A DNA stretch of 64,000 bases from Mycobacterium sp. SMC-8 (GTDB taxonomy: Bacteria; Actinomycetota; Actinomycetes; Mycobacteriales; Mycobacteriaceae), in assembly GCF_025263565.1 (NCBI RefSeq), contig NZ_CP079865.1, forward strand, positions 6,014,001 through 6,078,000. Direction: 5' to 3'. Shown piece by piece: positions 9,728 through 56,304 of the stretch. The notes under the pieces were generated by a model. That model made no database searches and was not told the DNA's origin. It saw only the letters and a list, made by a program, of their open reading frames with translations. How positions within the stretch are numbered: the stretch's first letter is position 1; every line of letters starts with the position of its first letter. Position numbers and translations under genes: made by a program.

Positions 9728-9742
9728 GAGAATGTCATTCTT
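9728..9742. promoter_or_regulatory. GAGAAT-N3-ATTCTC-type inverted repeat upstream of mas genes
   Basis: GAGAAT-GTC-ATTCTT; 5 of 6 arm positions pair. It lies 44 bases from the mas start codon and belongs to the motif family repeated across this window. Confidence 0.65.
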
Positions 9743-9751
9743 CTTTTCTGA

Positions 9752-9769
9752 GTATCGCATTGACGATAC
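9752..9769. promoter_or_regulatory. Second inverted repeat in the mas promoter region
   Basis: GTATCG-CATTGA-CGATAC has perfect 6-base arms with a 6-base spacer, just upstream of the GAGAAT-type site. It may be a separate operator or a promoter-proximal hairpin. The binding protein is unknown. Confidence 0.35.
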
Positions 9770-9835
9770 CTCGGTCACGCCGAGCTAGACAAAGGTCCTG
9801 AGTGCAGAAATGCTGGTTCTCGGCTGTGCAGCCGC

Positions 9836-11311
9836 TCAGCGTTGATGGTTCTGCAACCTGTCCTTCATCACCTTGCCGGTGGCATTCAACGGCAACTCGT
9901 CGAGAAACTCTACATACCGCGGCACCTTGAAACCCGCCATTCGGTCACGACACCATGCGATCAACCGGTCGGCGCTGAGTTGGTCGTGCGCCGGGTCGGC
10001 GACGACGAAAGCTTTGCCGACCTGACCCAGGCGCTCGTCCGGAACCCCGATCACGGCGGCCTGCGCCACGGCGGGGTGCTCAAGCAGGAAACCCTCGATT
10101 TCGGCCGGGTACGCGTTGAAGCCCCCGACGATGAACATGTCCTTCTTGCGGCCGACGATCCGCAGACGTCCCGCGTCGTCGAGCGTGCCGAGGTCCCCGG
10201 TGTGCAGCCAGCCTTCTGGATCGATCGTCTCGGCGGTCGCGGCGGGATCGTCGAGATAGCCCTGCATCACCGTGTAGCCGCGGATCAGCACCTCACCGTC
10301 GTCGGCGATGCGCAACTCGACACCGTCGCAGGCCACGCCGGCGGTGGTCGCGATGTCCTCGAACGAGTCCGCCGGCCGCGACAGCGTTGCGGTGCCGGCC
10401 TCGGTCAGGCCGTACCCGGTCGCCAATGTCCGGAACGGGAGCTCCTCGTGCACCCGGCGGACCAACTCGACGGGGATGTCGGCAGCGCCGGTCACCCCGG
10501 CGCGCAGCGTGGCCAGCTTGCTCTTGTCCTTGACGCCGAGCAGTGAGTGGTACAGCGTGGGCGGCCCCGGGAGCATCGTGACGCGTTCTGCGGCAACGAG
10601 TTCGACGACGCGCTCGACGTCGAAAACCGCGACGGGCAGCATGGTGGCGCCGCGGATGAAAGAGGCGATGAGTCCGGCCTTGTAACCGAAGGTGTGAAAG
10701 TACGGATTGACCATCAGGTAGCGGTCACCGGGCCGCAGATCGGCCAGCTCGCACCATTCCTCGTACAGCCGCAGGTTCTGCCGGTGATTCATCATCACAC
10801 CTTTGGGACGCCCCGTGGTGCCGGAGGTGAAGATGATGTCGGAGACGTCGTCGCCGTCGACGGGACGGCTGAACGGCGAACCGCTGCCCAGGAAGTCCGA
10901 TTTCAGGTCGAACACCGGCGGTCGCCTGCCGGGCCACGAAGAAGGTAGCGCATAGTCGACGCCGAGGAATCCCTGTTGCACCAGAACAGCTTTCGCGCCG
11001 CTGCGGCTGATGATGTCGGCTGCCTCATCGGCCTTGAAGCGGGTGTTGACGGGCACCAGCACCCCGCCGGCGGTGAGCAGTCCGAACGCGGCGATGATCC
11101 ACTCGGCGCTGTTGGGTGCCCAGATCGCGGCCCGCTCCCCCTTGGCGATCCCGAGATCGGCAAAAGCACCTGCGGCGCGCTGGATCCGCTCGACGAGCTC
11201 TGTGAAGGACAGGCGCAGCGGACCGTCGACGACCGCTTCCGCGTCGCCGAATCGGTCCGCCGCGCTGGCGACCATCTCCGGGATGGTCGCCCATCGGGCT
11301 TGATACGTCAC
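9836..11311 (-). CDS. Acyl-CoA synthetase, FadD / AMP-dependent ligase family
   Basis: A 491-residue ANL-superfamily enzyme that activates a carboxylic acid to its CoA ester through an acyl-adenylate. The P-loop FTSGTTGRPKGVMMNH is at about 161-176, the YGLTEAGT motif is in the core, LHTGDLG follows, and LNATGKVMK near the C-terminus holds the conserved catalytic Lys (about 480). The GTG start overlaps the upstream amidohydrolase stop (GTGA, 11308-11311), so the two are translationally coupled. The short length suggests a cyclic or medium acid rather than a long fatty acid; this is inference. The substrate is unknown. Confidence 0.85.
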   Translation of the reverse strand: MTYQARWATIPEMVASAADRFGDAEAVVDGPLRLSFTELVERIQRAAGAFADLGIAKGERAAIWAPNSAEWIIAAFGLLTAGGVLVPVNTRFKADEAADIISRSGAKAVLVQQGFLGVDYALPSSWPGRRPPVFDLKSDFLGSGSPFSRPVDGDDVSDIIFTSGTTGRPKGVMMNHRQNLRLYEEWCELADLRPGDRYLMVNPYFHTFGYKAGLIASFIRGATMLPVAVFDVERVVELVAAERVTMLPGPPTLYHSLLGVKDKSKLATLRAGVTGAADIPVELVRRVHEELPFRTLATGYGLTEAGTATLSRPADSFEDIATTAGVACDGVELRIADDGEVLIRGYTVMQGYLDDPAATAETIDPEGWLHTGDLGTLDDAGRLRIVGRKKDMFIVGGFNAYPAEIEGFLLEHPAVAQAAVIGVPDERLGQVGKAFVVADPAHDQLSADRLIAWCRDRMAGFKVPRYVEFLDELPLNATGKVMKDRLQNHQR

Positions 11312-54775: not shown

Positions 54776-54794
54776 AGTTGAATGCTCCTGCTCT

Positions 54795-54986
54795 TCAGTC
54801 GATTTCGCGTATTGCTCGTTCGGGACAGTTGTCGATGGCCTCGCGGGCAGCCGTTTCCAGGCCGGCGGGCACCGTCTCGGGATCGGCGACAGCCCAGCCG
54901 TCGTCCGTCATCTGAAAGACGTCAGGGCACAGCGTCAGGCACATTCCGTGGCCGGCGCAGCGATCTTCGTCGACCGTCACCTTCAT
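54795..54986 (-). CDS. Small P450-type ferredoxin (CxxHxxC)
   Basis: A 63-residue ferredoxin. C10-AG-H13-GM-C16 plus C20 and the distal CPERA give CxxHxxCxxxC...CP. ATG at 54986 overlaps the P450 stop by four bases (ATGA), so it is the direct partner of the P450 at 54983-56260. Confidence 0.9.
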
Positions 54987-56260
54987 CGGACGTCGAACTC
55001 CAGGTGCAGTTCGGTGAGCCCTCGCAGGATGTAGGTCGGGATGTACTCGTAGCGCCGGTTGCCGGCCGGGCCGTGCTTACTCTCCGAGATACGGATGTCG
55101 GTGGTGCGGTCCAGAAGTCGCTCCAGGCCGACGCGGGTCTCGGCGCGGGCCAGCGGCGCCCCCGGGCAGCTGTGGATTCCCCGGCCGAAGGCAAGGTGCT
55201 GGCGCGCGTTCTTACGCTCGGGGTCGAAGGTGTCGGGGTCCTCGAACCGGCGCGGATCCCGGTTGGCGGCGCCGTTGATGACCATCACGGTGCACCCCGC
55301 TCCCAGCGGCTGGTCGCCGACGGTGGTGGGAACCCGTGACAACCGGAAATCCCCCTTCACCGGGCTTTCGATGCGCAGGCACTCCTCGATGAAGTTCGGC
55401 AGCAGACTGCGGTCGGCGCGCAGCCTCTCCTGGATGTCGGGCCGGTCGCCCATCACCTTCAACGCCGTGCTCAGCAGCCGCACCGTGGTCTCCTGCCCTG
55501 CAGAGAACACGTTCGTGGCCACGCGCACCACGTCGCCGACCTCGGGCAGGGTGCCGTCCGGGAACGTCGCCGTGGCCAGTCCGGTGAGCACGTCGTCCCG
55601 GGGTTCGGCGCGTCGGTCCTCGACATAGGTCGCGAAGACCTCGTAGAGATACTCCAGCGGCGTTTTGGTCAGCGTCTTCTCGGCGTTGCCGAGCCCGCCG
55701 CCGTGGGTGCCCTTGGCGAGCCGTTCGAGCAGTTCCGGTCGGTCCTCGTCGGGGACACCGAGCAGGTCGGCGATCACCCGCAGCGTGAACGGAGCGGCGA
55801 AGCCCTTGATGAACTCGCCTTCACCGGGCGTCAGGTAGTCATCGAGGATGTCATCGGCGAGCTGCCACATCGCGTCTTCGTTCTCTTTGAGACGCTTGGG
55901 TGTGATCAGGCGCATCAGCAGCGCGCGGTGGTTGGTGTGCGTCGGCGGGTCCAGCGTGGGCAGCTGGTCGCTGAACGGGATCTCGTCGCGATGCTCGACG
56001 ATCAGGTCGGTGATGTCGTCCATGCCCTCGGTCGATACCGGGAACCCCGGGAACGGGCCGGTCACCGAGATGCAGGACGAGAACGTCTCCGAGTCGTTGT
56101 AGACGTCGACGGCCTCCTGCCAACCGGTGACCATCGTGACGCCGTAGTGGTCTTCGCGGGCGACCGGGCATTTGTTGCGCAGTGCTTCGTAGAACGTGTA
56201 CGGGTCGTCCGTCAGGCGGCTGTCCCTGAAGAAGTCGACCGTGGTGAGGTCTTCGGCCAT
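54983..56260 (-). CDS. Cytochrome P450
   Basis: A 425-residue P450. I-helix SAGQETT, K-helix EECLR, heme loop [15 protein letters not shown] with Cys at about residue 365. It is a clear paralogue of the P450 at 17535 ([18 protein letters not shown] versus ADTFSSCIAVAGPFPPLP). The start is ATG at 56260; GAGAAC-GTG-ATTCTC sits 29 bases upstream. It is followed by its own ferredoxin and the DUF1330 gene. The substrate is unknown. Confidence 0.92.
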
Positions 56261-56289
56261 GCTCGCTCCGTTCGACGGTCTCTCGCTGC

Positions 56290-56304
56290 GAGAACGTGAT
56301 TCTC
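56290..56304. promoter_or_regulatory. GAGAAC-N3-ATTCTC repeat upstream of the P450-ferredoxin unit
   Basis: GAGAAC-GTG-ATTCTC; 5 of 6 arm positions pair. It is 29 bases upstream of the P450 ATG at 56260. It is a strong copy of the window-wide motif. Confidence 0.7.

Follow-up and report, generated by a model that had tools for sequence, protein, structure and literature searches.

The question raised by this locus is one of ownership. Across a 64,000-nucleotide stretch of Mycobacterium sp. SMC-8 DNA (the window; GC 66%, with the appearance of a Mycolicibacterium chromosome and two short matches only in a plasmid search), a 15-bp inverted repeat recurs, GAGAAY-N3-RTTCTC, a dyad with a 3-bp centre. 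A sequence-only reading had proposed that it defines a candidate regulon spanning the mce importer and catabolic genes, and had found no regulator in the window that obviously owns it. Here we report that the repeat is genuine. Most probably it serves as operator for TetR-B, an autoregulated repressor of the TetR family; the TetR-B gene would lie outside the window, and the repressor is predicted to control the mce and catabolic units.

The repeat in the window and in relatives

A motif scan of the window recovered every site previously listed, each where it had been placed, and the earlier scores of 5/6 and 4/6, which count base pairs of the dyad, are consistent with the mismatch counts used here. 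Seven sites have at most one mismatch, three of them exact and four with one (Table 1). All seven lie at least 87% outside gene models, the non-coding share of the window being 7.5%; the models behind these calls are our own and partly guessed. The sites at 41350 and 41474 fall within the longest open reading frame (ORF), 40309-41643, and are outside a gene only if the acyl-CoA dehydrogenase start is shifted to about 41316-41319. We place that start near 41319 because alignments of the M. hippocampi and M. aurum orthologues begin at window residue 109. Six further matches have two mismatches: 15018 and 35024 are outside genes (15018 on condition that GTG 15048, and not ATG 15003, is the DUF35 start), 18864 is 27% outside, and 4851, 31468 and 49251 are intragenic.

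When the half-site was permuted in 60 ways, its true form gave seven matches in the window, and each of the other 59 gave two or fewer. Over 1.33 Mb, comprising the window and 66 related loci found by searching with TetR-A, the TetR-family protein encoded in the window (best matches at 88-94% identity in Mycolicibacterium/Mycobacterium), spacing 3 yielded 61 exact and 71 one-mismatch matches, and spacings 0, 1, 2, 4, 5, 6 and 7 yielded 1, 0, 0, 0, 0, 0 and 0 exact and 12, 3, 7, 3, 3, 6 and 0 one-mismatch matches. Spacing 8 gave 4 exact and 33 one-mismatch matches, repeated at a few similar places of related loci; they resemble conserved coding DNA and were rejected as a meaningful signal. At up to three mismatches the window holds 74 matches against 49.9 expected, and with so small an excess the three-mismatch matches were not taken as meaningful individually.

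Conservation was scored over the 12 motif positions against 60 flanking bases, in a set made up of the 66 loci and a further 20 stretches, the latter from three genomes also among the loci, at most three genomes being counted twice. Identity in motif, spacer and flanks was 90%, 77% and 64% at 9728 (35 stretches), 100% (rounded), 76% and 73% at 12521 (45), and 98%, 81% and 80% at 15018 (41). At 18864, where the M. aurum counterpart is a one-mismatch site, the motif scored 84% and the flanks 73% (16 stretches); at 19772 (32 stretches) the spacer, at 95%, stood above the motif at 84%, with flanks at 73%, an ambiguous pattern. The right-hand sites had just one to three aligned stretches each (two for 56290, whose counterpart is exact in M. 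hippocampi, at 4766204, and has one mismatch in M. aurum), so sets of aldehyde dehydrogenase (ALDH) and amidohydrolase loci were drawn, each from 41 genomes. The ALDH set returned 30 loci, four of which, at 53-55% identity, were removed as likely paralogues. All 26 that were kept have two upstream sites: a counterpart of 35024 near the start, with one or two mismatches, and a counterpart of 35189 at 146-224 bp upstream of the ALDH gene, with one. For the amidohydrolases 33 genomes matched and 30 loci were returned (G029, G031 and G034 are missing); the best upstream site is exact in 18, has one mismatch in 10 and two in 2, and 21 of the 30 have two sites, the counterparts of 41350 and 41474. 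The sites are thus kept in relatives, both in aligned stretches and at these two sets of loci, and the lack of conservation in related strains that the sequence-only reading had named as telling against its proposal is not what we find.

Nor is the motif equally dense throughout genomes, the other outcome it had set against itself. Whole-genome scans of five relatives gave 9-11 exact sites per genome and none for the reversed pattern, and 40 of the 49 exact sites fall inside one 96-134 kb region per genome. This clustering, together with the conservation, supports the reading of the sites as a candidate regulon. M. aurum (G001) has exact sites at only two places beyond its cluster, one near an acyl-CoA dehydrogenase gene and one near POR/PfkB-like genes; the spacer letters of these sites (L067, L072) recur in off-cluster sites of M. 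frederiksbergense.

TetR-B as the candidate owner

A TetR gene encoding about 239 amino acids, TetR-B, has an exact upstream site in M. aurum, M. frederiksbergense and M. hippocampi. We read 52 loci of this kind, of which six are repeats and 46 distinct. The exact site stands at -70/-71 in 38 of the 46 and at -61 or -19 in two, so that it lies no more than 71 bp upstream of the regulator gene in 40; the remaining six comprise three TetR-B genes without an exact site and three copies of a paralogue, B'. An additional exact site directly past the end of TetR-B is present in all 12 loci with 1.5-kb flanks (L102-L113). In 38 of 47 TetR-B promoters a -10-like hexamer, chosen after the sequences were seen, starts 27-28 bp after the first base of the operator, and given this fixed distance the operator would cover the -35 region. 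The protein has a TetR_N domain and a TetR fold, and its helix-turn-helix stretch is identical across the full-length loci read. Orthologues at 72-74% identity occur in Actinocorallia populi, Nocardia vinacea and N. jiangxiensis, with exact sites roughly 60-200 bp upstream and 10, 9 and 18 exact sites per genome, respectively.

Presence of the gene and number of sites go together. In a sample of 148 genomes drawn around M. aurum, with TetR-B called at E<=1e-20, TetR-B was found in 124, TetR-A in 119 and an exact site in 129. The 118 genomes with strong matches to both proteins hold 1090 exact sites (mean 9.24, range 2-13), two genomes with weak or incomplete TetR-B have one each, and the 24 without TetR-B have eight in all, one of these 24 showing a weak TetR-A match (E 2.9e-32). 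Seven of the 24 reach at least 5 Mb and jointly hold two. The reversed pattern matched 19 times over all 148 genomes.

A profile of TetR-A relatives matches nothing but TetR-A in the window; in the retrieved regions it also picks out several further TetR genes. TetR-A and TetR-B are 58 kb apart in M. aurum, 60 in M. frederiksbergense, 80 in M. austroafricanum and 87 in M. hippocampi (range 58-88), and TetR-B is therefore placed off the window. We infer that the window's own genome has the gene, which would stand about 11-14 kb past the right end of the window under the gene order of M. aurum and M. frederiksbergense, or 33-41 kb past it under that of M. austroafricanum and M. hippocampi.

Paralogue B' carries D78E and D92N in the helix-turn-helix stretch (VVERS, FNGKHE) at the three loci read. 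A variant dyad, GAGAAG-N3-CTTCTC, occurs once per genome and directly upstream of the B' copy in five of seven two-copy genomes, and is found in none of seven other genomes. Loci tied to this variant dyad are L165, L167, L169 and L190-L194.

Several observations weigh against TetR-B as owner, or against the breadth of the case for it. The promoter loci were chosen by us and are not a random sample. TetR-A and TetR-B co-occur so tightly (TetR-B is present in 118 of 118 genomes with strong TetR-A) that profiles alone cannot separate them, and the four genomes with strong TetR-B and no TetR-A, G031, G067, G093 and G142, have 1, 1, 0 and 4 exact sites. None of G031, G067 and G093 has an exact site before TetR-B; at -70 G093 has a form with two mismatches. 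Many of the genomes without TetR-B are small (1.9-6.5 Mb, completeness not given). One exact site is flanked by TetR-A and TetR-B in G060, and Actinocorallia has a site 143 bp upstream of TetR-A. The Pfam TetR_N score of TetR-B is modest (E 4e-7), its structure model, built from 26 close sequences, is middling (mean predicted local distance difference test score 73), and the N. vinacea copy reads through one stop codon. For the variant dyad, two of the seven two-copy genomes are without it, and the scan background was four reversed-control matches in 14 genomes. G031 (L131, L255, L256) also keeps several cluster genes along with a TetR-B of unchanged helix-turn-helix and no operator there; the region read has no site with one mismatch or fewer, and a search of it for other dyads gave nothing clear.

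On balance we suggest that a TetR-B dimer would bind GAGAAY-N3-RTTCTC with one subunit per half-site. By covering the predicted -35 region of its own promoter it would repress its own gene, and it would silence, rather than activate, about ten transcription units over roughly 100-135 kb, the mce importer genes included. A coenzyme A (CoA) thioester, or some other intermediate formed early from the imported compound, may release it, as for KstR2. The MarR (61412-61888) and MerR (3122-3862) genes of the window were set aside as owners because TetR-B accounted for the data.

Four other explanations have to be weighed. The operator might be motif X, published for Mycobacterium sp. VKM Ac-1817D, in which case an outline of both regulator and regulon would already exist; we regard this as unlikely, on a comparison of gene context. 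In the part of the source available to us (PMC6593523), motif X is a palindrome before 14 operons with cytochrome P450 (P450), ALDH and short-chain dehydrogenase/reductase (SDR) genes, 12 of which rise more than 3-fold with phytosterol. It also occurs close to a TetR start codon and is assigned to G155_05115, the orthologue of Rv0767c, which is itself among the motifs analysed, without letters, in the accessible part of PMC4482099. Such a palindrome before P450, SDR and ALDH operons and its own TetR gene is much what we describe, and in M. hippocampi one P450-like gene directly follows TetR-B. Judged by locus tags in that portion of the paper, however, the neighbours of G155_05115 include three P450 genes and one for a steroid isomerase, a set absent from all seven TetR-B neighbourhoods read, and the motif X operons are scattered, whereas the GAGAAY operons are clustered, with just the two off-cluster exact sites in M. 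aurum. The operator letters were found in no paper by a text search of open-licence literature (logos and supplements lay outside its scope), and were not met in the accessible parts of PMC4482099, PMC1810536, PMC4881515, PMC5962712, PMC10672877, PMC3068626 and PMC6593523; five terms looked up in PMC6678751 were all absent from it.

TetR-A, which the sequence-only reading had put forward for binding assays, is very unlikely to own the operator. It is located within the cluster, at least two exact sites occur in 118 of the 119 genomes that have a TetR-A match, and the arrangements in Actinocorallia and G060 point the same way. Its promoter, however, bears a different conserved dyad, TGCTNAGCA, in at least one copy in 60 of the 66 related loci and in the window (61/67), and in both copies in 51 of the 67; the six loci without it are those with TetR-A identity of 39-61%. 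An exact GAGAAY site lies within 500 bp upstream of TetR-A in only one of the 66 related loci, G060 being a second case. TetR-A was therefore rejected as owner, and the earlier statement that the window contains no obvious owner of the site was right. The dyad of TetR-A probably acts in local autoregulation and serves the divergent P450 as well.

It is hardly probable that the repeats are some other promoter element, such as an activator site, to which no TetR binds. The sites are close to start codons, and TetR binding is a prediction; the strict dyad with fixed 3-bp spacing and a spacer that is freer at several sites, the placing of sites before both genes of divergent pairs, and a paralogue with its own variant dyad nevertheless fit a dimeric repressor. 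Chance or a conserved-coding artefact, to which the small excess at three mismatches and the mimicry of repeats by conserved intragenic DNA at spacing 8 might point, has a negligible probability and was rejected, since it is contradicted by the permutation, spacing and reversed-pattern controls, by position and conservation, and by the grouping with TetR-B.

Candidate target units and neighbouring genes

The enzymes of the window, by Pfam, are DUF35-thiolase (aldolase-like) pairs and a fusion, acyl-CoA dehydrogenases, Amidohydro_2 proteins, CoA ligases and five P450s. Earlier gene labels agree with Pfam for the enzymes and for the four mce genes scanned; the pair at 8134-9683, labelled 'mas', and several small ORFs match no Pfam family. 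The ALDH-to-mce row, scanned apart from genes 25960-26985 and 26982-28175, may be read as one operon from its close spacing and shared strand.

Table 1. Candidate operators and associated features of the window (mismatches to GAGAAY-N3-RTTCTC)
Feature	Position	Strand	Description
Candidate operator GAGAATGTCATTCTT	9728..9742		1 mismatch; 45 bp upstream of two-gene unit 8134-9683(-)
Candidate operator	12521..12535		Exact; 35-bp gap before amidohydrolase 11308-12498(-); abuts stop of AMP-ligase gene 12534-14159(-)
Candidate operator GAGAACGTCATTTCC	15018..15032		Degenerate, 2 mismatches; before or within first codons of DUF35 gene(+), start 15003 or 15048
TetR-A	16724..17350	-	Query 16724-17413; Pfam TetR_N; probably a local regulator
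Predicted TetR-A operator TGCTAAGCA-GG-TGCTCAGCA	17468..17487		Dyad TGCTNAGCA doubled, TGCTNAGCA-N2-TGCTNAGCA
Weak candidate operator GAAAATGGTGTTCTG	18864..18878		2 mismatches; downstream of P450 17478-18815, overlaps start of ORF 18868
Candidate operator CAGAACGAAATTCTC	19772..19786		1 mismatch; between 19323-19751(-) and 19791-20354(+)
ALDH-to-mce row	20379..34999	-	ALDH, CoA-transferase, DUF35, thiolase, two yrbE, six mce-type genes (Pfam); candidate target unit
Degenerate candidate operator	35024..35038		2 mismatches; precedes ALDH-to-mce row (34999 down to 20379, -)
Candidate operator GAGAGTACGGTTCTC	35189..35203		1 mismatch; precedes SDR 35255-35956(+)
Candidate operator	41350..41364		Exact; precedes acyl-CoA dehydrogenase pair (about 41319 down to 39150, -)
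Candidate operator GAGAACAGAATTCTT	41474..41488		1 mismatch; precedes amidohydrolases 41566-43862(+)
Candidate operator	56290..56304		Exact; 30 bp upstream of P450 54983-56260(-)

Additional genes deserve mention in their own right. A single protein (47296-48966) joins a DUF35/ChsH2-like domain to a thiolase-like domain, and the small product of 19791-20354, which adjoins candidate operator 19772, matches a model of the Rv2253/PknI dimerization domain. Two adjacent convergent IspD-like genes, 6763-7479(+) and 7448-8113(-), score 143 and 78 bits in Pfam. The MarR gene has Rieske oxygenase, TauD, CMD and amidohydrolase genes as neighbours, and the group may form a sub-cluster under separate regulation. 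Two adjacent one-mismatch KstR2-like dyads (core CAAGTNCTTG) stand at 61306-61339, between 60250-61293(-) and the MarR gene, and are perhaps the operator of that sub-cluster.

In M. aurum, the region past the window encodes a KstD-like protein (NCBIfam PRK12835, 1071 bits against a cut-off of 837) and a 3-carboxyethylcatechol 2,3-dioxygenase-like protein (520 bits against 291). Alpha/beta hydrolases, an IclR regulator, a Rieske-oxygenase-like protein, luciferase-like monooxygenases, a methylmalonyl-CoA-mutase-like protein and a MeaB-like protein are also encoded there; NCBIfam and Pfam families were assigned to part of the M. aurum genes, with no full pathway assembled from them. This gene content suggests a polycyclic isoprenoid-type lipid as substrate, with sterols, terpenoids and others all possible.

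We give an even chance to the reading that a separate regulon for polycyclic lipids, having its own mce importer, several P450s, an extradiol ring-cleavage step and enzymes of KstD-like and Rieske type, is governed by TetR-B and GAGAAY-N3-RTTCTC as an undescribed master switch, that it is widespread in mycobacteria and present also in Nocardia and Actinocorallia, and that the duplicated repressor moved to GAGAAG-N3-CTTCTC in some genomes. If so, B' is a natural case of operator-specificity divergence, and with its variant operator it is suited to testing how TetR proteins change specificity. The pairing would provide a concrete regulator and operator for a catabolic region of ~100 kb, both TetR genes being found in 118 of the 148 sampled genomes. 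It bears on the range of sterol- or terpenoid-like lipids within the reach of mycobacteria and on industrial strains for phytosterol, in which side pathways lower yield.

Comparison with known systems

The sequence-only reading had held that the repeat differs from the sites of KstR and KstR2, and this is borne out. The operator described here is 15 bp long with a 3-bp centre, unlike that of KstR. The KstR consensus TNNAACNNGTTNNA, in the letters given by that reading, has two matches in the window, both intragenic and neither at a candidate site, and the GAGAAY half-site at spacing 2 gave no exact match in the 1.33 Mb. KstR chains are weakly similar to TetR-B (E 1.9e-4 to 5.3e-4, over residues 47-143 only), and Rv0078, EthR2, RolR and FadR align to it better; TetR-B is not a KstR orthologue.

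The KstR2 motif AnCAAGnnCTTGnT, in the part of the source seen, governs about 15 genes from sites mostly 22-82 bp from starts, and was found from the promoters of regulator orthologues (PMC3068626), the same route of discovery as here. In the window it has no exact match and six one-mismatch matches against 0.5 expected, none at candidate sites. KstR2 is similar to TetR-B at E 0.08, and its chains are not among the 50 structure matches listed.

A further likeness is with the C-19+ cluster of M. smegmatis, as given in the accessible portions of PMC5962712 and PMC10672877: a steroid-type cluster beyond the KstR regulon with neighbouring kstD genes, MSMEG_2867/2869. In M. aurum the sole KstD above the NCBIfam cut-off lies ~0.93 Mb from the cluster, and an adjacent KstD pair lies at 2.15 Mb, ~0.9 Mb from it; low-scoring matches in the KstD search appeared in all 14 control genomes too. 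The 2.15-Mb pair would be the C-19+ homologue, apart from the cluster studied here. M. neoaurum has KstD pairs on two contigs. The 'mas' label, which has no Pfam match here, recalls in turn the work of Casali and Riley (2007, PMC1810536, seen in part), who report Mas pairs close to the mce5 operon of M. paratuberculosis.

Set beside these systems, a TetR repressor such as TetR-B is of an ordinary kind, but its regulon would be large and widespread. We propose that this regulon is KstR-like in kind, with another operator and, as its substrate, probably a polycyclic lipid.

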